DNA from: Capitulum mitella
Taxonomy: Eukaryota; Arthropoda; Thecostraca; Pollicipedomorpha; Pollicipedidae
NCBI GenBank assembly: GCA_030062745.1
Contig: CP099846.1
Location: forward strand, 28,851,201-28,915,200
Reading direction: 5' to 3'
DNA: 64,000 nucleotides
Below are positions 5,341-54,309 of this stretch, one piece after another. A program made the position numbers and the translations under genes. Positions within the stretch are counted from its first letter, which is position 1. Each line of letters starts with the position of its first letter. Under the pieces are notes generated by a model. It did not search any database. It had not been told where the DNA came from and saw only the letters and a list, made by a program, of their open reading frames with translations.

Positions 5341-5372
5341 GATCACTGTACGGGCTGGTCGAGGTCCCTTAA

Positions 5373-6578
5373 CCCTATTCCCGGCAAGGGGGGGGGGCTG
5401 AATCCGCCCCCCCCCCTCGGGATTTTTGCTTGCCAATTCCAGGCTTTTTAACGCAGCTTCACAAAACTTGGTGACTTTTCCTAGCTATTCTTTCTACGCG
5501 CTGTGACGAAATTTCAAAATTCTACTTTGCTCAGGACCGGAGCCAGGCAACGTTTTTGAGAGGCACCTCAGGCAATTTTTGGCCATGTTGAGGGTAAAAG
5601 AAAAATGTCTGCCAAAAACAGAGTTTTTAAGATAGAACTTAAAACCTTATATCGATGTATAGATAAATAGTTGGGCAATGTGCAGACAAAACTTTGTTTG
5701 TCTCAGGTCACTTTACAAGGTCAGGCCAAGGTCAAAAGTCAAATTTTTTTCGCAATAATTTCGGCGCCGTTTTTTTAAATGCCAAACCCGGAATACATAT
5801 GACGTAGAAGGGTGCCCTCTACTTGTGTACCAAGATTCAGCTTGATATCAGGTCGGGTCACGGAGCTATGACCTAAAATGTCAGTGCGCGTATCCTATAT
5901 CGCGATAGCCATAAAATGAAATTTTTGGAATAGAGTGAATTCGAATGATTGAAAACGTTTACAGATAATATCAAATGCACACGAGATCATTCCAAGTGAC
6001 CCCAAGGCCACTGGAGGTCATTTAAGGTCAAAGGTCACAAGTTGATCTGAAGAACGTGTGACCATGACAGTTCCCCCTTTTCATGTCCCTGGCACCGCCT
6101 TTGCTAACATTATACAAACAATGTAATGTGGTTTTTACTTCTTTAGCATAGCATGACTAGCAGCAGCCAAAAAAGTGTTTTTACCTTTTTTGTTCATTCA
6201 TTTATTAGAAAACTAATCCTCTTATTTTTGAAACCCTGTGAACGCCCATGAATTTTCTCAAAATTTCAGATTTGTATATTTATGGTAAAAGCCCTATCCA
6301 TAATCTCTCGATGCATACCAATTTTATTGAAATCGGTCTATAAACAACGGAGTTATAAGAAGTCCAAAAGTACCCCCCATTTTGACATTTTTGCCCCCCT
6401 GCATCCACAAATTTCGAAATTTTGAATTTTTTTATGAAAGCGTAGTTCACGTCACGGCAAATCGATTGCCATTTGTTGCGATGAAATTGGACGAGTAGTT
6501 CTCGAGATCTCAGGGGGGGCCGAATCCGCCTCCCCCTGCCGGGAATCGACCATACCGTCTAGCCCTCCGGGAATAGGG
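5373..6578 (-). mobile_element. TTAA family A element, copy 2 (complete)
   Basis: TTAA flanks both ends (5369-5372 and 6579-6582). The left end reads CCCTATTCCCGG; the right end read inward starts CCCTATTCCCGGAGGGC. Both ends carry the G-run/C-run hairpin. It has the same orientation and about the same length as copy 1 and aligns to it throughout with scattered substitutions. It interrupts the GC-rich tandem repeat, whose units continue on the far side, so the repeat is older than the insertion. Confidence 0.88.
6025..6037 (+). promoter_or_regulatory. DR1 motif in family A copy 2
   Basis: AGGTCA-A-AGGTCA is perfect here, at the position that corresponds to the DR1 of copy 1. A further half-site GGTCA lies nine bases upstream. 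Confidence 0.6.
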
Positions 6579-6582
6579 TTAA

Positions 6583-8425: not shown

Positions 8426-9432
8426 TGTAACAATTGCATTATGCTCATGCGTTAACCCACGCACGACCGTTGGTCGGTTTCGAACATGCGCGACTGGGGG
8501 GGGGGGCAGTTGGCCGCCCCCCTCTAACTCACTAACGGTTGGTCGCACGATAAAAATAAGCATACCGTTGGAAAGCTTGTGACGAATAGAGCTCGAAACT
8601 GGTCTCATGTTTAGTTTTAGATGATCTGTAAGCAATTTACGCCCTATATATGTTTTCTTATAGCCGACTGCATGAGACCAAGAAATGGCCTGAATCTCAA
8701 GGGCTGTGACTAATAGCGCATAGGTAAAGGCACCAGTGCACAAGTAAAGGTCCGCGGATGCCGATAAACGTCTAATTTCACAAACCTGTTCAATATATAC
8801 GCCGAAACGTTGAGTTAAAGACACGGTAATTCTCGCGCCAGCTGTCGGCGTGCGCCTCAGCCGTATGCAGTAACAAATTGACGGGAACTAATTTTAGCGT
8901 TCCTTTATTTTCGCGAAAAAAAGCCTATCTATGTAAATTTTATTGATCTTAGTGGTTCCTGTGATGATTTTTCATGCTTAAGCTTTGGAAAAATTCATTA
9001 GTTACCAACCTACATAACTGGCGGAGCTTTATTCGCGAGAGCCTGTTTATTTGCAAAATATGCTACTTTTTCAAACTTTTTGAGGTTCCTGGTATTACTT
9101 ACGTCTGTGCAAGCTAGTTCTGCAATTTTCTACCCATTCTAAGCATTTCATCGCCGATTTTGACGGTGGTACATTTTGGCTCACTACAGTTATTCGTGAC
9201 CTGACCTCAGGACAATGGCTGGAAGTCATTGATACTTTGCCCAATGACGGTAACTAGATGTCTGCTTCACTCCACACTAAAAATGCTATGAAATATTTCG
9301 TCAATTCCCGAGAAAAACACGACATGTCTTAAAAATGTTTTTTATTACATTTTATTTATTTTGTTATACTTTATTAATATTTTATTATAAAAGAAAAAAT
9401 ATAATATAAAAAATGTCTTAAAAATTGACCTT

Positions 9433-9445
9433 AGGTCAATGACCC
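9433..9445 (+). promoter_or_regulatory. IR1 motif, ecdysone-response-type, family C copy 1
   Basis: AGGTCA-A-TGACCC is an inverted repeat with a one-base spacer. It fits the arthropod EcR/USP consensus RGKTCANTGAMCY in every position. The same site is present at the corresponding place in family C copies 2 and 3 and in the fragment at 15831. Function is not shown. Confidence 0.6.
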
Positions 9446-9584
9446 GGGAAATTCCGAAAAATCTGAAATAGCAGATTCGTTGCATCTATCAGCATCACTA
9501 ATCCCTGAAAGTATTACTGAGATATCTTGTTTTGCGAAAAAGTTAGAGGGCGCTTAACTTTTTTGGACATAGGTCTGTCTGACC

Positions 9585-9596
9585 TGACCTAGGTCA
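9585..9596. promoter_or_regulatory. TGACCTAGGTCA palindrome, family C copy 1
   Basis: Two AGGTCA half-sites face outward with no spacer, inside a run of further half-sites (9576-9625). Copies 2 and 3 keep slightly altered versions (near 48839-48855 and 53251-53266). Confidence 0.5.
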
Positions 9597-9759
9597 GGCA
9601 CCTGACCCGACCTGAGGTCAAAATTTTGACACGAGATGTAGAATTGATGAAGCAAAAGGTACACAAAGTTTCGTGGTTTTGTGTTTGTTTGTTTTCTCTC
9701 AATCCCAGAAAAACCTCAGGGGGGCAGTCAACTGGCCCCCCCAGTCGGGGACAGATTAA

Positions 9760-31135: not shown

Positions 31136-31928
31136 TAGCGGAATCATTTCACTTGAAAGCGCATAAGAACTGACCCGACATCTTTCGATTCTGATGAAAT
31201 TTGGCACGCTTATGGTGTCTATCCAAGAACGGCCAGCAGGGAGTTTAAGCCCTGGGGACTTCTGAGTTCAAATTTACAGGTCATGAAAGGTCACCGATTT
31301 TTTACTGACATTGCATGATGTAAATGCCCGTAACTGAGTGACAGATTGTCGCAGAAAAGTGAGGTTAGCGCCATTCGAAAGAGAAATGTTTCAGGTTTCA
31401 TACACAAGTTCACTTTTTGGTGACCCGGGGAGACCTTTGACTAGACTAGGTCACATGGAACATTCTTAGTTCTAACCATGTTTACCCACTGTGATCTTTG
31501 CAAAAATGTAGCACAATATGTTTCCAAGTATCTACAATAAACGTGGTAAAAAGTCCGGGAAAACTGAAACGTTCTCAGATATCTTGAATTTAGTGTTACC
31601 GAGTGGCGCTTGAGAAACATGCCCTAAGACTATTTCACGAAGACTGATTGATTTCGCGCATTTCGTTTGTCCGATTGTTATAAAAGTTGGAATGCACAAT
31701 GTCCTGCGTATCTGCTATACATCAGTTTCGTTTTAACTGCGTAACTAGAAAGGTCAAAAGTCATGAAACACCACCACCAGTCGATCCCCGTCATCCAGAT
31801 CTGCCATCCATAGCCGTTCTTCACATTTCCACGGAAGTGAGTCTATCGGTTGTTCTTAGTCCTTTTAGCCAACTGAGGCAATTCTAGTCCAGCATCAGGG
31901 TCTTTTGAAGATCAACCGAGGCCATTTA

Positions 31929-33111
31929 CCCTACTCCCGGAGCCCTAGATACTGTGGCCGATTCGCGGGAAGGGGGGCGGATTCGGTTCCCCTGAGATCT
32001 GAAGAACTACACATCCGATTTCATCGCAACAAAAGACAATCGATTCACCATGACGTAGATCATATTTTTATAAAAAAGAAGCTTCCAAAACTTTGAAAGG
32101 GGTTGATACAGATGACAAAGAAAGTCAAAATAGCGGATATTTTTGGACTTGTATAGTGTTGTTGTTTATTGGCCAATTTTTATGAAATTGGCACGAATCG
32201 AGAGATTATGGATGGGACTCTTACCATGGTCCGCACATTTGAATTTTTGGGAACATTCATCGGCTTTCACAGGGTTATGAAAATAAGAGGATTGTTTTTT
32301 TCAAAAATTGAATTGGCGTAAAAGTTAAAAAACCTTTTTAGTTTGTACTAGTCATGTTATGCTGAAGAAGTACAAATCGTATTACAATGTTTGTATGATA
32401 TTAGCATGGGCGGTGCCAGGGACATGAAAAAGAGGGAACTGTCATGGTCACATGTTCTTCAGACCACCTTACGACCTTTGACCTTCAAATGACCTCCAAC
32501 GACCTAAGAGCCACCTGAAATGAACTTGTGTGCATTTCATACTATTTGGAAGCGTTTCCAATAGTTTGAATTCACTTTATTTTTAGAATTCCATTTTGCG
32601 GCTATTACGATAAAGGGTACACGTACTAACATTTTAGGTCATAGCTCTGTGACCCGGCATGATATCAAGATGAAACTTGGTACACAACTAGATGACACTC
32701 TTCTAGGCCATATTTATTCTGGGTTTTGGCATTTGAAAAAATAGCGCCAAAATTATTAGTATGAAACCGAGTTTTGGTTTTTGATTTTGACCTCACTTTG
32801 TGAAGTGACCTAAGATGAACAAAATTGTATTTATATATTACCCAACTATTTTAAACTCTATCTTAAAAACGCTATTTTAGGCAGACATTTTGCGTTTACC
32901 TGCAACAGAGCAAAAAATGGCCTGAGGTGCCTCCCCAAAACGTTGCCTGGCTCCGCTCTTGTGCCAAATAAAATTACGAAATTACGATAAGTAGAAAGCA
33001 TGGCTTGGAAAAAGTCATCAAGTTTCGTGAAGCTGCTTCAAAAACCCTGGAATTGGCAAGAAAAAACCCGAGAAGGGCCGATTCAGCCCCCCCCCCCTGC
33101 CGGGAATAGGG
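31929..33111 (+). mobile_element. TTAA family A element, copy 4 (complete length, diverged)
   Basis: The left end CCCTACTCCCGGAGC follows TTTA (31925-31928, a changed TTAA). The right end CCGGGAATAGGG is followed by TTAA at 33112-33115. G-run/C-run hairpins are present but worn on the left. It is more diverged from copies 1, 2 and 7 than those are from one another. It lies in the left arm of the long inverted repeat and is therefore younger than that repeat. Confidence 0.85.
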
Positions 33112-33641
33112 TTAAGCTCGATTGACCTCAGATAACCTGTTGGCCTCGAACCATTCGTAGTTTTTCTAGGGCACTGATTCCAGGATGTCACATGGACTGT
33201 TCACACATCGGAATTTGCTCGTATCAAATATTTCCATGTCAGCTAGAGGGCAATGACTTTTTGTCAGGACGTCCTCCCCTAAATGTTGGAATAACTGCAA
33301 ATGAAGTGACAACTTCGTACGGAAGCAGATAGGAGTGAGGACTGAGATACGTGCAAAAAAATCTGAAAATGAACTTCTATTCAGGACACGGAATGAAAAT
33401 AAATGACTTGATGCGTGCAAAATGGACGTGAAATTCGAAACCAGCGCCCAAAAAAACTATGAATGGTCCGAGCTAAAACAACAATCCAAGATGAATCGAT
33501 GTCATTGACCTAGGTTGACCTTCCAAAGGCCACGATCCTGGACTGGGATTATCTCAGCTGGCTTTAGACCTAAAAACATCCGACAGACTCAACGGGTAAG
33601 TCAGATTTAGATGATAGGGATCGATTGGTGGTGGGGTGCCA

Positions 33642-33654
33642 TGACCTTTGACCT
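33642..33654 (-). promoter_or_regulatory. DR1 motif in right arm of the long inverted repeat
   Basis: TGACCT-T-TGACCT. The equivalent place in the left arm (near 31752) reads AGGTCAAAAGTCA, a near match. This repeat family is unrelated in sequence to family A yet carries the same motif. Confidence 0.5.
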
Positions 33655-34265
33655 TTTGGCCAAATAATTTAAAACTAAGCTGATATGTAGCAGGCACATA
33701 AAAAACTACGTACACCAAATTGTAGAGCAATCGGGCAAACGGAAGGCACAGAATCAATCAATATTCGCCAGATGGCTTAAGGGCATACTTCTCAAACGCC
33801 ACTTAGCAGCACTCAAGTCAAGGTGCCTGACAAAGTTCCAGTTCGCCCAGAAATGTTTTTTGCCACACATATCGCGATACTTGGGGACATATTGTACTAC
33901 ATTTTCGCGAAGATCACGGCGGGCAACATGACTAAAACCAAAAATGTTCCATGTGACCTAGTCAGGTGAAAGGTCATCCCAAGGTCAACAAAAACAAACC
34001 CATTTAAGAAAGCTGGGGCATTTCACTTTTGAATGGCGCTAATCTCACATTTTTGTAACAAACTGTCGCCGACTTCTGGGCACTTGAATCATACAATGTT
34101 TTTAAAAGTCGGTAAGTTTTGATGATCTGTACCTTTGACCTCAGCGGCCTCCCAAGGCTAAATCTTCCTGGCCGACCATTTTTCGATAGGTACTATGAGC
34201 ATGCACCAAATTTCATCCAGATCGAAAGAGGTTGGATTAGTTCTTGTGCGATTTGACGTGGTGAC

Positions 34266-42249: not shown

Positions 42250-42582
42250 TTAGAGTTTCCAACGCCTTCATTCCCAGGCCGACCAGAGAAACGAAATTCA
42301 AGCGAAAGATGGGAAAGAGAAATTGCAGATACATGACGGCGCTGCAGAAAGTTCAACTGAGGCTACTTCAGCCTGGGCACCAAACACTGCTGGTATTGTC
42401 GCTGCTTGGCGGGTCAGCCTATGTCCAGGCGTCAAGCACCCGATTACCGCACGCAAGTTACGCCCCAGGCGCCACAAGTAGAGGGGGGACTAAAATCAAT
42501 TTTTATCTTCTACAAGCTGATTCTAATGTGGTTATGTATTCTGATTATGATTCTGGTCTTTATTTCGTGATTTTACCTTGTT
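42250..42582. other. Spacer between copy 6 and the transposase element
   Basis: A 126-codon plus frame (42240-42620) overlaps both neighbours and has no recognisable domain. An AATAAA on the minus strand (42559-42564) lies just outside the left end of the next element and could serve as poly(A) signal for its gene. Confidence 0.4.
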
Positions 42583-42722
42583 TTAACCCTCCACACGAAG
42601 CATTTGACTTTTACCTATAGGTATGCCGTGCGGCGTACAGTGTACATTATACTAGCGTGAGAAAACGACCGTGTTCTGACGTCTTCAGATATATTTCTCA
42701 CGAATAACTACTCGTATCTACT

Positions 42723-45539
42723 CTATTCCATCCCGATTCTGCTAAGTGCATCCTTGAAGTCGTTTATGTCCATGTTGACCTTGCAGCTGATCTTACTGAG
42801 ATAGGTGGTGAGGTTCACAGCATACTCGGCTGAGGTTAGATTTCTTCCATTCTTCTTGAGACGGAATACGTCGCTGGCCTTCGGGAAGGACAGCGAAGAG
42901 TTCTTGGCATGTCTGACTTCCACGTAGAGCCTCTTGTTCTTGGTGATGTCCTCTAGGTCAGGGTTCTTCAGGAACTCCTCCACTTGCTCTGGTCTCGTAA
43001 ATGGGCCTCCTAACTCGGTGAGGTAAGCCAGGTCACAGTTTCTCTGCTTGTCCTGGGCGATGCTTGCGAGTTCCCTGTCCTCCATTCCTTCCTTCTTGAG
43101 CTTTGCCTGTTTTTCTTCCCATGCTTCAAGGATAGCTGGTACGGCTCCACCCCTCTTGGTCATTTTCTTGAACGTGCCGGTGACTTCGCTTCCCTCCAGC
43201 AGTTCAGCAGCTTTGGCTTTGATCAAGGAAGAGCTAACTGACCTGATTTCTTTAGCTCCTCTGACCTTCAGCCCATAGTTCACGGAGCCGACGGCTCTCT
43301 CGGCATCAAGGTTGTGCACCGGCGCCTTCTTGAGCTTATCTTGGTCCAAACTCCTGATGTTCGTGTTGTTGTCCTCGTCATTCTCCGCCTCCCCAAAGCC
43401 AAACATCTCGCCACGCTGGTGCTTCCAGCCCGCGGCCAGCTTTGGGAGGAGGAGCTCCAGGGTCTTGCAGATTTCCTGTCTGTACTGTTCGATGATTTGG
43501 ATGGTCGGTTCCAGGAGGGAGGGTGAGTACAGGCAGTGGTTGAACCTTGCTTTGGAGATGAATGAAAACGCTGGAGAGGCGAAGTCGATGAGAACCTCAG
43601 GCTTGGTCGTCATGAGGTCCATGTAGAGGGTGGGGAAAGCCTCTACCAGAGTCTCCCAGGTTGTGGAGGAGGAGGTTGTCAGGCTCAGGTAGGGCTCCAC
43701 CAGGTGCACCCCGATGATGACAATCACGGCAGCCAGTACTCTCAGGTACTCCAGGCCCTCGAAGCTGCGGATGATGCAGGCCAGGCTGTTTGAGATGTTA
43801 CTGAATTTGGAGAGGAAGTCTGATACGTGTTTGTCCAGGAACAGGGCGATGAGGGCAGTGTATACGAGGCTATTGAACCGCTCCTTCTGGAGTCTCTTGG
43901 CAGGGTTTTTGAGAGGGAAGATGAAGATGTCGAACTCTTTGGCGTAGTTCCAGGATCTATGGTCAAAGTCGTGCGTGACGAGCCTCATCAGACAGTTCAT
44001 CCACTGCTCCACGACTGATTCCTGGACGTCGGAGAGTGACACAGCGAAGACAGGGAAGATCTTGCTGGGGCCAATCGTGATGTCTATCTGCTTACAGAAC
44101 TTCTGGAGACACCTATTGAACATACAGGCGGGATGGACTTGGCAGATGAGATGCGAGGGGGTATGATCAGTCTCCAGAGCAGCTGACACCAAGTCATCAA
44201 CCATCAGGTTGTGGGCAGTGGAATCCGTCATCGTGAAGTCGATGCGGCGCCAGAGGTCTTCAGAAGAGACTCCACTGACGGCACTCAGTATGGCCAGGAT
44301 GGTGAGCTTGAGCTGCGCCAAGTTTTCCCTTGTCTCAGAGGAGATACTGAGGGTGGGGAAAGGGAAGAACTTTCCATCAATAGTGGCGCCCTGAACGGAA
44401 AAAGAGCCAGCACCTTGCTTCTTCGAGCCGTCATCATGATACGTGATCGTAGACTTCTCATCGCTTGCCATTATCTTCTCCACGAGCTTGCTCAGCGCCA
44501 GCGCCTCCCTCGCTTTTCCTGTCTCCCTGATAGATTTTTTGTCTGGCACCGTGTCTAGGTCGATGGTACTGTCATCATCATCAAATCTCTTCCATTTCAG
44601 GTTAAACAGCTCCTTAGCTATGATGATCGTGGAGCCGACGGCCTGCTCCTTTGACATGTGGAGCTCGGAGATGCACCTGTCTAAAGCAGTATAATATTCA
44701 GGTCGGACCTTCCTGATGCTGTGACGGACGTGTCGATAGCCGTCAGGAAGCTGCCCAGTGTTCTCTGCACTGCCCTCTTGTACAACATTCCTCTTCCTCT
44801 TCCTTGAGCTTCGTGACGAGTCCTCTTCCTCACTCGTAGTTTGCATCTCTTCGTAGTCCGCATCTTCATTTTGAAGAATGTTCTGGTTCATATCTGCATA
44901 TTCTTCAGCAACTTCGATCATCTCAAGCTGGTTCTTCTTCTCCTGCTCAGATTTCTCCAGTCTCTTCTGAAAGCTTGCCATGTCTTTCTTCCTCCTGGCG
45001 TCCTGAGCCAACCATTTCCTATCCACAAATGCCTCACAGTGACTCACACGCCTCCCCCTTATTTGATCGTTCCAGAAAAGCTCTTCGTCGTTGGTCTCCT
45101 GAACCCCATACAGCTCCTCCTGCTTCTTCCTGAAGGCGACGTCCAGGGTCCTTATATCAAGTCCTTGCTCCAGGCTCTTCGTGAAGGGATCCACCTTCTC
45201 GTTCACCCACTGCTCCGACATTCTGTTCTTGGGGTAGCTCTGCAGTTTTTTGAATTCGTCATATAGAACTAGGACCATCTTGGCTACGTTCTTAGGGTGT
45301 TTTGGATAGACATTGCACCACGTCCAGTGCTCACAAAGCTCCTCCGCCACCTGCAGCGCAGCCCAGTCCTTGCTCATGCGGATGAAGGATCCCTTAGGTC
45401 TGGGTACCAGGAACCAGATCATTCTTTCCAACACCTCTCTTTTTGTAGGCAGTTTGGATGAGGTGAACGTTTCTCTGGCGTGGATGGTGATAGGACCCAG
45501 GCACATGCTCCATTTAGAACGAGTTTGGAATGGATTCAT
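42723..45539 (-). CDS. Transposase-like protein, 938 aa, hAT-like catalytic layout
   Basis: The product is probably a nuclear DNA-cutting and -joining enzyme; I do not recognise a named family. Residues 1-200 look like a helical N-terminal domain. Residues 185-250 are a charged coiled-coil-like stretch ending in a basic, nuclear-localisation-like SSRKRKR (244-250). A core follows: YHDDGSKK with Asp369/Asp370, MTDSTAHN with Asp439, CQVHP with Cys466 and His469, and LDAERAVGS with Glu747. The spacing of about 70 and 308 residues, the Cys-x2-His after the second Asp and the Glu-Arg pair all resemble hAT enzymes, where a long helical insertion separates the second Asp from Glu. No BED or THAP zinc finger is visible. 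The first ATG follows a good splice acceptor (TTTCGTTTCAG, exon starting at 45556), so an upstream exon is likely. No stop or frameshift is present. A domesticated host gene is the main alternative; the TTAA termini argue for a transposon. Confidence 0.8.
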   Translation of the reverse strand: MNPFQTRSKWSMCLGPITIHARETFTSSKLPTKREVLERMIWFLVPRPKGSFIRMSKDWAALQVAEELCEHWTWCNVYPKHPKNVAKMVLVLYDEFKKLQSYPKNRMSEQWVNEKVDPFTKSLEQGLDIRTLDVAFRKKQEELYGVQETNDEELFWNDQIRGRRVSHCEAFVDRKWLAQDARRKKDMASFQKRLEKSEQEKKNQLEMIEVAEEYADMNQNILQNEDADYEEMQTTSEEEDSSRSSRKRKRNVVQEGSAENTGQLPDGYRHVRHSIRKVRPEYYTALDRCISELHMSKEQAVGSTIIIAKELFNLKWKRFDDDDSTIDLDTVPDKKSIRETGKAREALALSKLVEKIMASDEKSTITYHDDGSKKQGAGSFSVQGATIDGKFFPFPTLSISSETRENLAQLKLTILAILSAVSGVSSEDLWRRIDFTMTDSTAHNLMVDDLVSAALETDHTPSHLICQVHPACMFNRCLQKFCKQIDITIGPSKIFPVFAVSLSDVQESVVEQWMNCLMRLVTHDFDHRSWNYAKEFDIFIFPLKNPAKRLQKERFNSLVYTALIALFLDKHVSDFLSKFSNISNSLACIIRSFEGLEYLRVLAAVIVIIGVHLVEPYLSLTTSSSTTWETLVEAFPTLYMDLMTTKPEVLIDFASPAFSFISKARFNHCLYSPSLLEPTIQIIEQYRQEICKTLELLLPKLAAGWKHQRGEMFGFGEAENDEDNNTNIRSLDQDKLKKAPVHNLDAERAVGSVNYGLKVRGAKEIRSVSSSLIKAKAAELLEGSEVTGTFKKMTKRGGAVPAILEAWEEKQAKLKKEGMEDRELASIAQDKQRNCDLAYLTELGGPFTRPEQVEEFLKNPDLEDITKNKRLYVEVRHAKNSSLSFPKASDVFRLKKNGRNLTSAEYAVNLTTYLSKISCKVNMDINDFKDALSRIGME

Positions 45540-45845
45540 CTTTCTTCTAGGATATCCTGAAACGAAAGCAAAAAAGGTTTTACAGGAGCACAGGCTTTCG
45601 GATATTAAGAGTAACGGACGGCATAGGGGAACAGGAACAATACAGGGACAGGAAGAGGTGAAACATATTTTTAGCTTTTCTCAGGATCCATGATAAGGAA
45701 ACTCATCACAAATTACAAACCTTCACGTCAAACCTTTACTTTGGTCAAAACTTCTTTTGCAAATAAATCACAATAGAATAAAGATATCGCAAAATAAAAA
45801 GCGCAATGTGTTTGTCTTGTCAATGCGCATCTAATGATATGCAAC

Positions 45846-46058
45846 ATGACCTCCACCGTGACCACTGGGTCAACACGTGACCTTGACCTGAGGTCAAATT
45901 TGAAATTGACCTTTCAATATTAAAACGTAGCCTGGCCGATGCGTCTTGACGAGAGGAACACGATGGGGTAACGTACATTCCTGTATCTCTATTAGATCAA
46001 ACGCTATAAGGAAATACCCAAAGGTCAAAATTTGAGCTTTTCGTGACCTCAGAGGTCA
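45846..46058. promoter_or_regulatory. AGGTCA half-site cluster upstream of the transposase gene
   Basis: Half-sites include TGACCTTGACCTGAGGTCA (45878-45896), TGACCT (45907-45912), AGGTCA (46022-46027) and TGACCTCAGAGGTCA (46044-46058). This is the presumed promoter and subterminal region. The density is similar to that in families A and C although the sequences do not align. Confidence 0.45.
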
Positions 46059-46254
46059 CCAATTATGGACCTGGGACCTTAAAAAGGGGTATCAGTCGCT
46101 TCCTCTCATCACGCCCAACACGCTCGTTTTGGTCCCGAGGCGATAGCTCAATTAGGGGCCAAACGCAAGGGGTGTCATACCCCCTATAAGTCCGTGTTAG
46201 GCATGGGACACCCAGAGCAAGGGCGAAGGTTTAACCCATGATGTGGAGGGTTAA

Positions 46255-47131
46255 AGCAATAGCGTATTGTATTTAAATGTTCTCACTGGCTTAAGGATAC
46301 CTAACCACAAATAAATTCACTTGTAGAAAAGTCCTAGCTATGAAAAACTTCCCTAAGTCCCCCCTCTACCACAAGCTGTGCCGCAATGTCAGGTATTTGA
46401 TGGGACAGCCCACGTTGAAACGTTACCGGACTTGAGGTTAACTCGGACGGCAGATGCTTATGTTCAATATGATTATTACAGCACGCGGAACGCTGGTAGT
46501 CGTGGACCTACGACGGAAGTTAACTTTTGAACTTTTGCGTCGCAGTGACTTCATTTCTGATACCATTTCTGCTATCACGTTTTCTGATATCATCAGTATT
46601 TCCTGTTGCTGAGGTCCATGGTCAGTGCCCATGCGTAACGCAAGGTAAGAATCGTGGATGCTTTTTAAAGGTTCCAGATCTCAAGACATTTTGTTCTCAA
46701 AACTTTGGGACTGAGCAAAATCAGTTATTTTGTTCTCATGGGCAAAAACAGTCCTGCCCCGCGTACCCATCCAATTACTCGATTATAATAGTGTTTGTTA
46801 ATCTTTTTTTTTTGGTTTACTACGCATCAGGAGTTTTGATTTACCGTTCATTGCGGTATAGCAGCGCAATATTTCTCTCAGTTCATGTCGTAACCGTACG
46901 AATAAATCTGAATGAGCCTGTACACATTGTTCCCAATATTGGACTATGTACGTACATTTGCCACACTGGTCACACACAAAGGTACATTTTACTCTGGTTC
47001 TGCTCTCATTTTGTATTTTGTTGTCGTCAATCACAAGTCGCGAAAATAATATTCTAGCCTTGATTGAGTGCATACAGCAGCGCGTTTCCTGATTTTGCAG
47101 GATATGCTCCACAATTCTGAATTCACACTGA
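46255..47131. other. Stretch without recognisable gene
   Basis: A frame at 46527-47057 lacks an ATG at its start and contains hydrophobic runs. A donor-like AAG-GTAAGA occurs at 46643-46651. The evidence is too thin for a gene call. Confidence 0.35.
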
Positions 47132-47135
47132 TTAA

Positions 47136-48318
47136 CCCTATTCCCGGAGGGCTAGACGGTATGGCCGATTCCCGGTAGGGGGGGGCGGATTCGGCCCCTC
47201 CTTAGATCTCGAGAACTACTCGTTCCGATTTCATCGTACCAAACGGCAATCGATTTGCCGTGACGTGAGCTACATGTTTATAAAAAGAAATTTTCAAAAT
47301 TTTGAAATTTGTGGATACAGGGGGCAAAAATGTCAAAATGGGGGGTACTTTTGGACTTCTTATAACTCCGTTGTTTATGGACCGATTTCAATGAAACTGG
47401 CATGAATCGAGATATCATGGATAGGGCTTTCACCATGGGTCCGCAAATCTGAAATTTTGAGAAAATTCATGGGCGTTCACAGGGTTTTAAAAATAGGAGG
47501 ATTAGTTTTCTAACAACTGGATGAACAAAAGAGGCCAACACCCTTTTTTGGCTTCTGCTAGTCATGTTATACTAAAGAAGTACAAGTCGCATTACAATGT
47601 TTGTATAATGTTAGCATAGGCGGTGCCAGGGACATGAAAAAGGGGGAACTGTCATGGTCACACGTTTCTCAGATCAACTTCTGACCTTTGACCTTAAATG
47701 ACCTCCAGTGACCTTGGGGTCACTTGAAATGATCTCGTGTGCATTTATTTGAATTCACTCTATTTCAAAAATTTCGTTTTATGGCTATTGCGATATAGGG
47801 TACGCGCACTGACATTTTAGGTCATAGCTCCGTGACCCGACCTGATATCAAGGCTGAAACTTGGTACACAAGTAGAGGGCACCCTTCTATGTCATATATA
47901 TTCCGGGTTTGGCATTTGAAAAAAAGGTGCCGAAATTATTCCAAAAAAAACAAATTTTGACTTTTGACTTTGACCTGACCTTGTAAAATGACCTCAGGTG
48001 AACAAAGTTACATCTGCACATGGCCCAACTATTTAGCTATATATCCATGTAGAGTTTTAGGTTCTATCTTAAAAAATCTGTTTTTGGCAGACATTTTCCT
48101 TTTACCCTTAACATGGCCAAAAATGGCATGAGGTGCCTCCCAAAAACGTTACCTGGCTCCGCCCCTGAGCAAAGTAGAATTTTGAAATTTTGTCACGGCA
48201 CGTAAAAAAAAATAGCTAGGAAAAGTTACCAAGTTTCGTGAAGCTGCGTTAAAAAGCCTGGAATTGGCAAGCAAAAAACCCGAGGGGGCGGATTCCGCCC
48301 CCCCTGCCGGGAGTAGGG
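47136..48318 (+). mobile_element. TTAA family A element, copy 7 (complete, best preserved)
   Basis: TTAA at 47132-47135 and 48319-48322. The left end is CCCTATTCCCGGAGGGC, the right end read inward CCCTACTCCCGG. Both G-run/C-run hairpins are intact. Length is 1183 bp without coding capacity. I use its orientation as plus for the family. It lies 0.9 kb from the transposase element. Confidence 0.9.
47692..47704 (-). promoter_or_regulatory. DR1 motif in family A copy 7
   Basis: TGACCT-T-TGACCT, perfect, followed by ATGACCTCCAGTGACCT and GGGGTCACTT: five half-sites in about 45 bases. Confidence 0.6.
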
Positions 48319-48322
48319 TTAA

Positions 48323-48679
48323 AAATTACAAAAGGTCCTTTTAACCTAAGCGCCATTTCCTAAAAAGCTGCCGAAACCGAACAGCTAACAAGGGTTCTTG
48401 TCATAAACACGATAAGACAATTCATGCTGGCTTTAAGCCCCGGATGGCGGCTACGAAGGCATGAAGTCATGTACCCAGCACTAGGCTGCATCACGGACCA
48501 CCGTGGACGGGTCCACCGGGCGCGAGACAAACAGTACTGTCGGCGCTGCGCAACAGGAACACTGACGCTGCAAGGATGCTCAAAGCCCGTGTCGAGGAAT
48601 AACTAAGCACGCAGGCAGACAACAGCAATGATGATTACGAAAAAGGGAGAAATCACGTAAACTGTGATTGATAGCTCCA
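48323..48679. other. Short stretch without recognisable gene
   Basis: Spacer between family A copy 7 and family C copy 2. A 60-codon frame has no features. Confidence 0.4.
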
Positions 48680-48683
48680 TTAA

Positions 48684-49892
48684 CCCGTCCCGACTGGGGG
48701 GCAGTTGACTGCCCCCCTCATGTTTTTCTGGGATTGCGAGAGAACAAACAAACACAGAGTCACGAAACTTTGTGTGCCTTTTGCTTCATTAATTTTACAT
48801 CTCGTGTCAAAATTTTGACCTCAGGCCAGGTCAGATGCCCGACCTAGGTCAGGTCAAACAGACCTATGTCAGAAAAGTTTAGCGCCTTGAAACGTTTTCG
48901 CAAAACAAGATATCTCAATAATACTTTCAGGGATTAGTGAACGGGATAGATGCAACATATCTGCTATCTCAGATATTTCGGAATTTTCCGGGTCATTGAC
49001 CTAAGGTCAAGCCCATTTTTAAGACATGTCGTTTTTTCGGAAATTGACGGAATATTTCATAACATTTCTAGTGTCGAGTGAAGCAGACATCTAGTTGCCG
49101 TCATTGGGCAAAGTATCAATAACTTCCAGCCATTGACCTGAGGTCAGGTCACGAATAACTGTAGTGAGCCAAAATGCACCACCGTCAAAATCATCGACGA
49201 ATTTCTCAGAATGGGTAGAAAATGACAGAACTAGCTTGCACATACGTAAGTAATACCAGGAACCCCCAAAAATTTGAAAAAACTGCATATTTTGGAAATA
49301 AACAGGCTATCTCGAATAAAGCCCCGCCAATTGTGTAGATTAGTAACTAATTGATTTTTCCAAAATTTAAACATGAAAAACCATCACAAGAACCTCTAAG
49401 ATCAATAAAATATACATAGATCGTCTTTTTCGCGAAAATAAAGGAACGCTAAAATTAGTTCCCGTCAATTTGTTAGTGCATACGGCAGCAGCGCACGCCT
49501 ACAGCTGCCGCGAGAAATGCCTTGTCCTTAACTCAACGTTTCGACGTATATATCGAACAAATCTGTGAAATTAGACGTGTATCGGCATCCGCGGACCTTT
49601 ACTTGTGCGCCGGTGCCGTTACCTATGCGTTTTTAGTCACAGCCCTTGAGATTGAGGCCATTTCTCGGTCTCATGCAGTCGGCTATGAGAAAACATATAT
49701 CTGGGGCGTAAATTGTTTACATGTTATCTAAAACTAAAAATGAGACCAGTCTCGAACTCTACTCATCACAAGCTTTCCAACGGTGTGCTCATTTTTATCG
49801 TGCGACCAACCGTTCGTGAGTTAGAGGGGGCGGCCAACTGCCCCCCTCCCCCAGTCGCCCTAGTTCGAAACGGAGCGACGGTCGTGCGTGGG
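48684..49892 (+). mobile_element. TTAA family C element, copy 2 (complete)
   Basis: TTAA at 48680-48683 and 49893-49896. The left end CCCGTCCCGACTGG runs directly into a perfect hairpin, GGGGGGCAGT-TG-ACTGCCCCCC. The right end read inward is CCCACGCACGACCG, with a second C-run/G-run region. The ends share only CCC and short motifs, so the terminal repeat is imperfect, unlike family A. No coding capacity. Confidence 0.87.
48990..49002. promoter_or_regulatory. IR1 motif, ecdysone-response-type, family C copy 2
   Basis: GGGTCA-T-TGACCT matches the EcR/USP consensus. A further half-site AGGTCA follows two bases later. Confidence 0.6.
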
Positions 49893-49896
49893 TTAA

Positions 49897-53098: not shown

Positions 53099-53102
53099 TT
53101 AA

Positions 53103-54301
53103 CTCACTCCCGACTGGCGGGTTGACCGCCTCCCTGAGGTTTTCCGTGAGTGCGAGAGAACGAGCAAACGCAGCGCCACGAAACTTTATGTACTTTTTGC
53201 TTGATCACTGTTGCACCTTGTATCCAATTTTTGACTTCAGGTCAACCAACGTGTCTGATCTAGGTCAGGTCAAGTGGACCTATGTCCAAAAATGTTCAGC
53301 GCCCTGCAATTTTTTTCGCAAAACATGACAACACAATAAACCTTTCAATTGCTAGAGATTTTGATAATTGCAGCAAATCAGCTATCTCTGATTTTTCGGG
53401 AACGCAGGGGTCACTGACCTAAACTCAAGCCCGTTTTCAACATAAGTCGTCGTTTTTTTTCGAAAACCGACGGAATTTTTTCAAACAGTTTGAGTGTGGC
53501 GAAATTAAGACATCCAGCTTCCGCCAATGGGCAACGTTTCAATGACCTGCGACCACTGGCCTGAGGTCAAGTCACGAACAACTGTTATGAGTCAAAATGC
53601 ACTGCCATCAAAATCGGCGGTGAATGGCTCATATCGACTGAAAATGGCAGAAGTGGCTCGCACAGTTACGACTAATACCAAGAAGTTGAAGAGGTTTAAA
53701 AAATTTCGTATTTTGGAAATAAACAGACTTTTGCGAATAAGGCTCTGCCAATCGTGTAGATTGATCACTACTAAGTTTTCTAAAAATCTAAATATGAGAA
53801 ATCATCCCAAGAACCTCTAGGATCAAGAAACAACACTTGGAATGGTACATTTCCCGAACACAAGGAAGCTAAAATGAGTACCCGTTAATTTCATACCGCC
53901 TTCGTCGGCGGCGCCCGCCGTGCAGCGTTGCGAAAATCACCGTGTCTTTAACTTAACGTTTCCGTGTGCATATGAAACAAATCAAAGAAATAAGGCGTGT
54001 ATCGGCATTTGCAGACTTTTACCTGTCTGGTGGTACCTTCATCTAGACTTCATTAGTCCCAGCCCTTGAGATTCAAGCCGTTTCTCAGTCTCATGCAGGC
54101 CGCTATGAGAAACATATATAGGGCGTAAATGGCTTACATACTATCCAAAACTAAAAATCAGACCAGTTTCGAGTTCTATTCGTCACGAGCTTTCCAACGG
54201 TGTCCTTATTTTTATCGTGTGATCAACCGTTCGTAAGTTAGAGCGGGGCGGTCAACCTCCCAGTTGGGCGTGCATGGCGCCGACCCACAGTCGGGTGCGG
54301 G
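53103..54301 (+). mobile_element. TTAA family C element, copy 3 (complete length)
   Basis: TTAA at 53099-53102 and 54302-54305. The left end is CTCACTCCCGACTGG, the right end read inward CCGCACCCGACTG. The G-run hairpins are worn. It aligns end to end with copy 2 but is more diverged. Confidence 0.85.
53408..53420. promoter_or_regulatory. IR1 motif, ecdysone-response-type, family C copy 3
   Basis: GGGTCA-C-TGACCT fits the EcR/USP consensus fully although the neighbouring sequence has drifted. The next half-site seen in copy 2 is changed to ACTCA. Confidence 0.6.
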
Positions 54302-54309
54302 TTAAAAAC

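Follow-up and report, generated by a model that had tools for sequence, protein, structure and literature searches.

A probable complete DNA transposon in Capitulum mitella with two concentric pairs of inverted repeats and a candidate transposase that reaches no Pfam family cut-off

Within a 64-kb stretch of the Capitulum mitella genome (the window), one long reading frame lies between inverted repeats, raising two questions: where does the element that carries it end, and what kind of protein does it encode? The first-pass annotation had described an intact TTAA-bounded transposon around an uninterrupted 938-codon frame, and the frame is borne out. It occupies 42723-45539 on the minus strand (P0001, the proposed DDE/D transposase), between exact copies of TTAACCCTCCACA. 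Without a start requirement the open stretch is 985 codons long, whereas the longest seen when 42479-46368 was shuffled 200 times (mononucleotide) is 282, and GC contents of 0.50, 0.37 and 0.68 at codon positions 1, 2 and 3 fit the expectation for genuine coding sequence. It is the only frame of at least 150 aa inside the element, the 64-kb window holds no second copy of the gene, and ten scanned of the window's 16 other long frames gave no Pfam match at E 0.01. From the stop codon to the left end, the sole AATAAA poly(A) signal is at 42559-42564 (minus strand), outside TTAA and inside the outer end; a weaker variant, AATATA, is at 42690-42695, inside TTAA. A pyrimidine-rich tract with a CAG that precedes the ATG by 17 bases was noted by eye as a possible 3′ splice site.

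The 13-base inverted match reported around the frame is present, with TTAACCCTCCACA exact at 42583-42595 and 46242-46254, and is in fact longer: 17 of 18 bases (94%) match between 42578-42595 (TTGTTTTAACCCTCCACA, plus strand, the TTAA end first proposed) and 46242-46259 (TTAACCCTCCACA with five outer bases, minus strand). The match thus extends five bases outward beyond TTAA, four of them matching. Allowing two mismatches, TTAACCCTCCACA occurs at four places, the two non-exact ones having two mismatches each. By itself the 13-base pair is weak evidence, because the window contains 26 exact 13-mer inverted pairs 2.5-5 kb apart (overlapping hits and repeat copies counted). Directly inward of the inner ends, similarity is marginal (score 29, equalled by 11/1000 shuffles) and was left unused. 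The inner motif does contain TTAA, the site that piggyBac duplicates, but this is its own reverse complement, so that any inverted repeat containing it mimics a TTAA target duplication.

This description was incomplete, because it overlooked a longer outer inverted repeat at 42478-42542 and 46294-46369. This second pair of ends carries GTAGAGGGGGGACT, exact at 42478-42491 and 46356-46369; the candidate terminal inverted repeats span 42479-42542 (plus strand, 5′-TAGAGGGGGGACT...) and 46294-46368 (minus strand, TAGAGGGGGGACT). Adjoining them at 42472-42478 and 46369-46375 is CCACAAG, a perfect direct repeat of 7 bases and a candidate target-site duplication, which counts as independent evidence for ends because, unlike TTAA, it is not produced automatically by an inverted repeat. 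The G at 42478 matches the outer repeat too, but belongs to the 7-bp duplication. The arms extend 105 and 115 bp outside TTAA, a difference of 10 bp, and their local alignment (42478-42582 vs. 46255-46369) scores 56, a value that none of 1000 dinucleotide shuffles attained (maximum 47); beyond the direct repeat the sequence is unrelated (score 29, equalled by 84/1000). An exact 10-base inverted repeat with an abutting exact 7-base direct repeat occurs at two places in the window, the present locus and a pair between two copies of a family here called f1, and any such combination appeared in 1 of 60 shuffled windows (survey limited to 10 kb, two-letter repeats left out). A chance origin of the outer repeat was rejected on these results. 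The islands of outer similarity stop 40 and 39 bases short of TTAA, and the ~40 bp of each arm beside TTAA show no similarity except in the last five bases (score 8; 999/1000 shuffles equal).

Two other multicopy families in the window, f1 and f2, end at TTAA. Copies of f1 with both ends lie at 1327-2535, 5369-6582, 31924-33115 and 47131-48324, and f2 copies at 8452-9759, 48680-49896 and ~53099-54305. Their ends read TTAA in 13 of 14 cases (TTTA in one), followed by CCC in 11 of 14 (the exceptions being CCG, CTC and TCT). By eye, their flanks appear unrelated, and the inverted match continues past TTAA for 1-2 of 5 bases in the seven copies with both ends. They share with the element a clustering of GGTCA/TGACC sites. 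The 5′ side of the gene (45540-46254, minus strand) has 11 of them, a density of 15.4 per kb; the four two-ended f1 copies have 5.9-9.2 (1.8-12.5 when all seven f1 pieces are included), the three f2 copies 7.5-8.2 and f3 7.8-10.6, against 1.9 in the remaining 48 kb and no site in the outer arms. The link between the element and f1/f2 rests on this density, because eight comparisons of the GGTCA-rich 5′ side with four f1/f2 copies on both strands were equivocal (equalled by 0-21 of 100 shuffles). The element ends, compared with six f1/f2 ends, gave no alignment beyond chance in 11 of 12 comparisons, the twelfth being equalled by 9/300 shuffles.

Two readings of these ends compete, and our weighting of both is a matter of judgement. 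The one to which we give roughly even chances is a single element of 3890 bp, 42479-46368, flanked by the 7-bp CCACAAG duplications; we prefer the outer pair as the true ends. It is favoured by the register of the repeats, the inverted match running past TTAA, the poly(A) signal outside TTAA and the hAT-like end and spacing, and it gains from the outer arms outscoring all 1000 shuffles while the sequence past the direct repeat is unrelated. Its rival, somewhat less probable though a serious contender, places a TTAA element at 42587-46250, with 9-bp ends CCCTCCACA, mid-way in an older, ~224-bp hairpin-type non-autonomous element that had TAGAGGGGGG ends and a 7-bp duplication. In that case the 938-aa frame would encode a TTAA-specific transposase from outside the families tested, possibly a relative of the mover of f1 and f2. 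The TTAA and CCC of the f1 and f2 ends speak for such nesting, as do the distribution of GGTCA/TGACC sites, the likewise TTAACCCT ends of piggyBac (primers given in passages of PMC2533014) and a precedent, an f1 copy within the inverted-repeat element at 31150-34260, which shows that nesting of this kind occurs in the window. Several of these points weaken the single-element reading, under which TTAACCC in the inner motif becomes a coincidence in a window with two other TTAA families that share the site clustering with this element; so do the dissimilar arm bases beside TTAA, the unequal arms, the usual hAT dimensions given below and the AATATA inside TTAA.

The nested arrangement has its own costs. 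The insertion must have hit the midpoint of the two outer islands to within about one base, the bases next to it must by chance prolong the inverted match, and the sole AATAAA would lie outside the TTAA element. The hairpin-type element has no second copy in the window, piggyBac does not appear in the Pfam listing (E up to 10), the CC ends differ from the RR..YY of Kolobok, and the comparison with f1/f2 ends stayed within chance in all but one case. We regard it as doubtful that the locus is a CCC-ended TTAA transposon with a hAT-like C/DxxH enzyme (neither piggyBac nor Kolobok) that groups with f1 and f2 and holds the group's intact transposase gene. The TTAA boundary first proposed is not established: the two TTAA families and the common GGTCA/TGACC clustering stand for it, and arms that reach 105 and 115 bp further to a 7-bp direct repeat, with a match that passes TTAA, stand against it.

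That the locus is an intact transposon whose protein is unassigned has good support. In Pfam searches with the whole protein and four fragments (E up to 10) no family reached its cut-off, all those listed being unrelated (best E 0.0052), and the protein matched no PDB sequence, one hit at E 1.4 being disregarded. The profile search against transposase families proposed in the first-pass annotation found none, whether BED, hAT-dimer or other, among the weak Pfam matches listed; the BED zinc finger, the hAT dimerisation domain, the THAP domain and the P-type transposase core are all absent among those for the 938-aa frame and its four fragments, though an upstream exon might supply further domains. 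Phage and plasmid records gave no match. In viral contigs, pattern matching returned three stretches for the whole protein and 1, 44 and 5 for three fragments, none confirmed as a relative. Unannotated invertebrate proteins with similar TDSxxHN and AERxxG motifs, not used as evidence here, guided the design of two degenerate motif patterns; in viral contigs the first pattern found no stretch and the second two, and the second found seven in genome contigs. At these nine loci tblastn with the protein produced chance-level hits in seven (best E 0.72), and the frames at three, read by eye, are unrelated.

The reading we favour for the protein is a DDE/D transposase from the hAT/P/Kolobok-like (C/DxxH) group. 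Candidate residues D370, D439, C466xxH469 and E747 are spaced roughly as in hAT (D370-D439 69, D439-C466 27, D439-E747 308). A fragment covering residues 335-495 is predicted as strand-strand-strand-helix-strand-helix, with D439 directly after the fourth strand, and, at low confidence, the surroundings of D370 and D439 are predicted to have an RNase H-compatible secondary structure. The transposase reading is weakened because a D..D..CxxH pattern of such spacing appears in 169/2000 shuffles of the protein, no transposase family is among the listed Pfam matches and the two predicted folds are poor (mean pLDDT 37.7 and 54.9). Among the best 50 of 360 Foldseek matches (E up to 10) were 40 HIV reverse transcriptase chains (aligned part unspecified), two isolated RNase H domains and ribosomal and Hsp70-type chains, with Hermes at rank 49; no match reached E 0.001, the TM-scores listed were at most 0.37 and rmsd was ~9-20.

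Two further explanations were weighed. An ordinary host gene, or a domesticated transposase, lying by chance between unrelated inverted repeats would account for an intact frame with coding bias and no second copy in the window, but a direct repeat and two inverted repeats, one pair within the other, closely enclose the gene, which is a single long exon with acidic residues in transposase-like order; we consider this very unlikely. Scarcely probable, too, is a passenger or accessory protein of the transposon, as which the missing transposase family among Pfam matches and a motif spacing within chance might be read: the frame is the only one of at least 150 aa in the element, and the predicted structure around D370/D439 is, at low confidence, compatible with RNase H.

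hAT ends follow the consensus YARNG, which the element's TAGAG ends fit. The hAT mark of an 8-bp target duplication (5, 6 or 7 bp in named sublineages) is replaced here by 7-bp CCACAAG if the outer ends are right, like the 7-bp duplications given for hAT7 in passages of PMC12730594. Passages of PMC3942097 describe hAT ends as usually 10-25 bp with 8-bp duplications; the present arms are ~65-115 bp, and the protein, at 938 aa, has no BED or dimerisation family among its Pfam matches. Its D-D-CxxH-long insertion-E order and spacing resemble Hermes (D180, D248, H268, E572; passages of PMC2533014 and PMC4763223) and Kat1 (D310, D377, C402/H405, E895; PMC4763223, in part). W513 at D2+74 parallels Hermes W319 at D2+71, and K758, R760 and K763 at E+11 to E+16 parallel K585, R586 and R588 at E+13 to E+16; Hermes W182, two residues after the first D, has no counterpart tryptophan. 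The P superfamily, a member of the C/DxxH group, has 7-8 bp duplications (PMC5199201, in part), and P-type Pdre2 combines an end repeat with a subterminal inverted repeat (PMC10983969, in part), a layout that matches ours only if the outer ends are right. Differences from P are the absence of THAP and P-transposase families from the Pfam matches, a D2-E distance of 308 here vs. 228 (DmTNP) and 239 (hTHAP9), and the CA with which Pdre2 ends, unlike ours, begin.

Sola3 prefers TTAA. Kolobok would share TTAA, under the nested reading, and the C/DxxH signature, but its termini beside TTAA are RR..YY (PMC9587614, in part) whereas ours are CC..GG, and its zinc finger between the second D and E was not recognised by eye. 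piggyBac would, under nesting, share TTAA|CCCT ends; it differs in being absent from the Pfam matches and because the 938-aa protein has only two cysteines in its last 240 residues. Dada agrees in its 6-7 bp duplications and C/DxxH group, but its CCCC and CCHC zinc fingers and Dada-U6 D-D-E spacing (PMC3706591, in part) do not suit our protein, whose cysteines are unfit for such fingers and whose D2-E distance is 308 vs. 176. Dada inserts in multicopy small RNA genes; no tRNA was detected by ARAGORN once the flanks were rejoined, and the unjoined region had a single Rfam match, inside the element and far below the gathering score. The literature searched, whose coverage left out most subscription papers, yielded no superfamily with such a combination of features.

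Taken as a single element, the locus would be a complete animal DNA transposon of the cut-and-paste type, probably autonomous. Its long exon would encode a DDE/D enzyme belonging to the C/DxxH group (hAT, P, MuDR, Kolobok, Dada), a transposase that may bind TAGAGGGGGG at the outer ends as well as TTGYTTTAACCCTCCACA, the inner inverted motif ~105-115 bp further in. Excision would be carried out by an RNase H-like site of D370, D439 and E747, with C466xxH469 assisting, and the element would be joined to its target with a 7-bp stagger.

Under either reading, the element appears to carry a transposase gene that is intact and goes unrecognised by Pfam models and PDB sequences. Were the inner ends the true ones, TTAA targeting would extend to a further branch of the DDE/D transposases, and some TTAA|CCC families called piggyBac-like on no other ground than their ends might be misfiled. 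Were it the outer ends, the element would represent a lineage close to hAT and P in which duplications are 7 bp long and end repeats are paired with subterminal ones.

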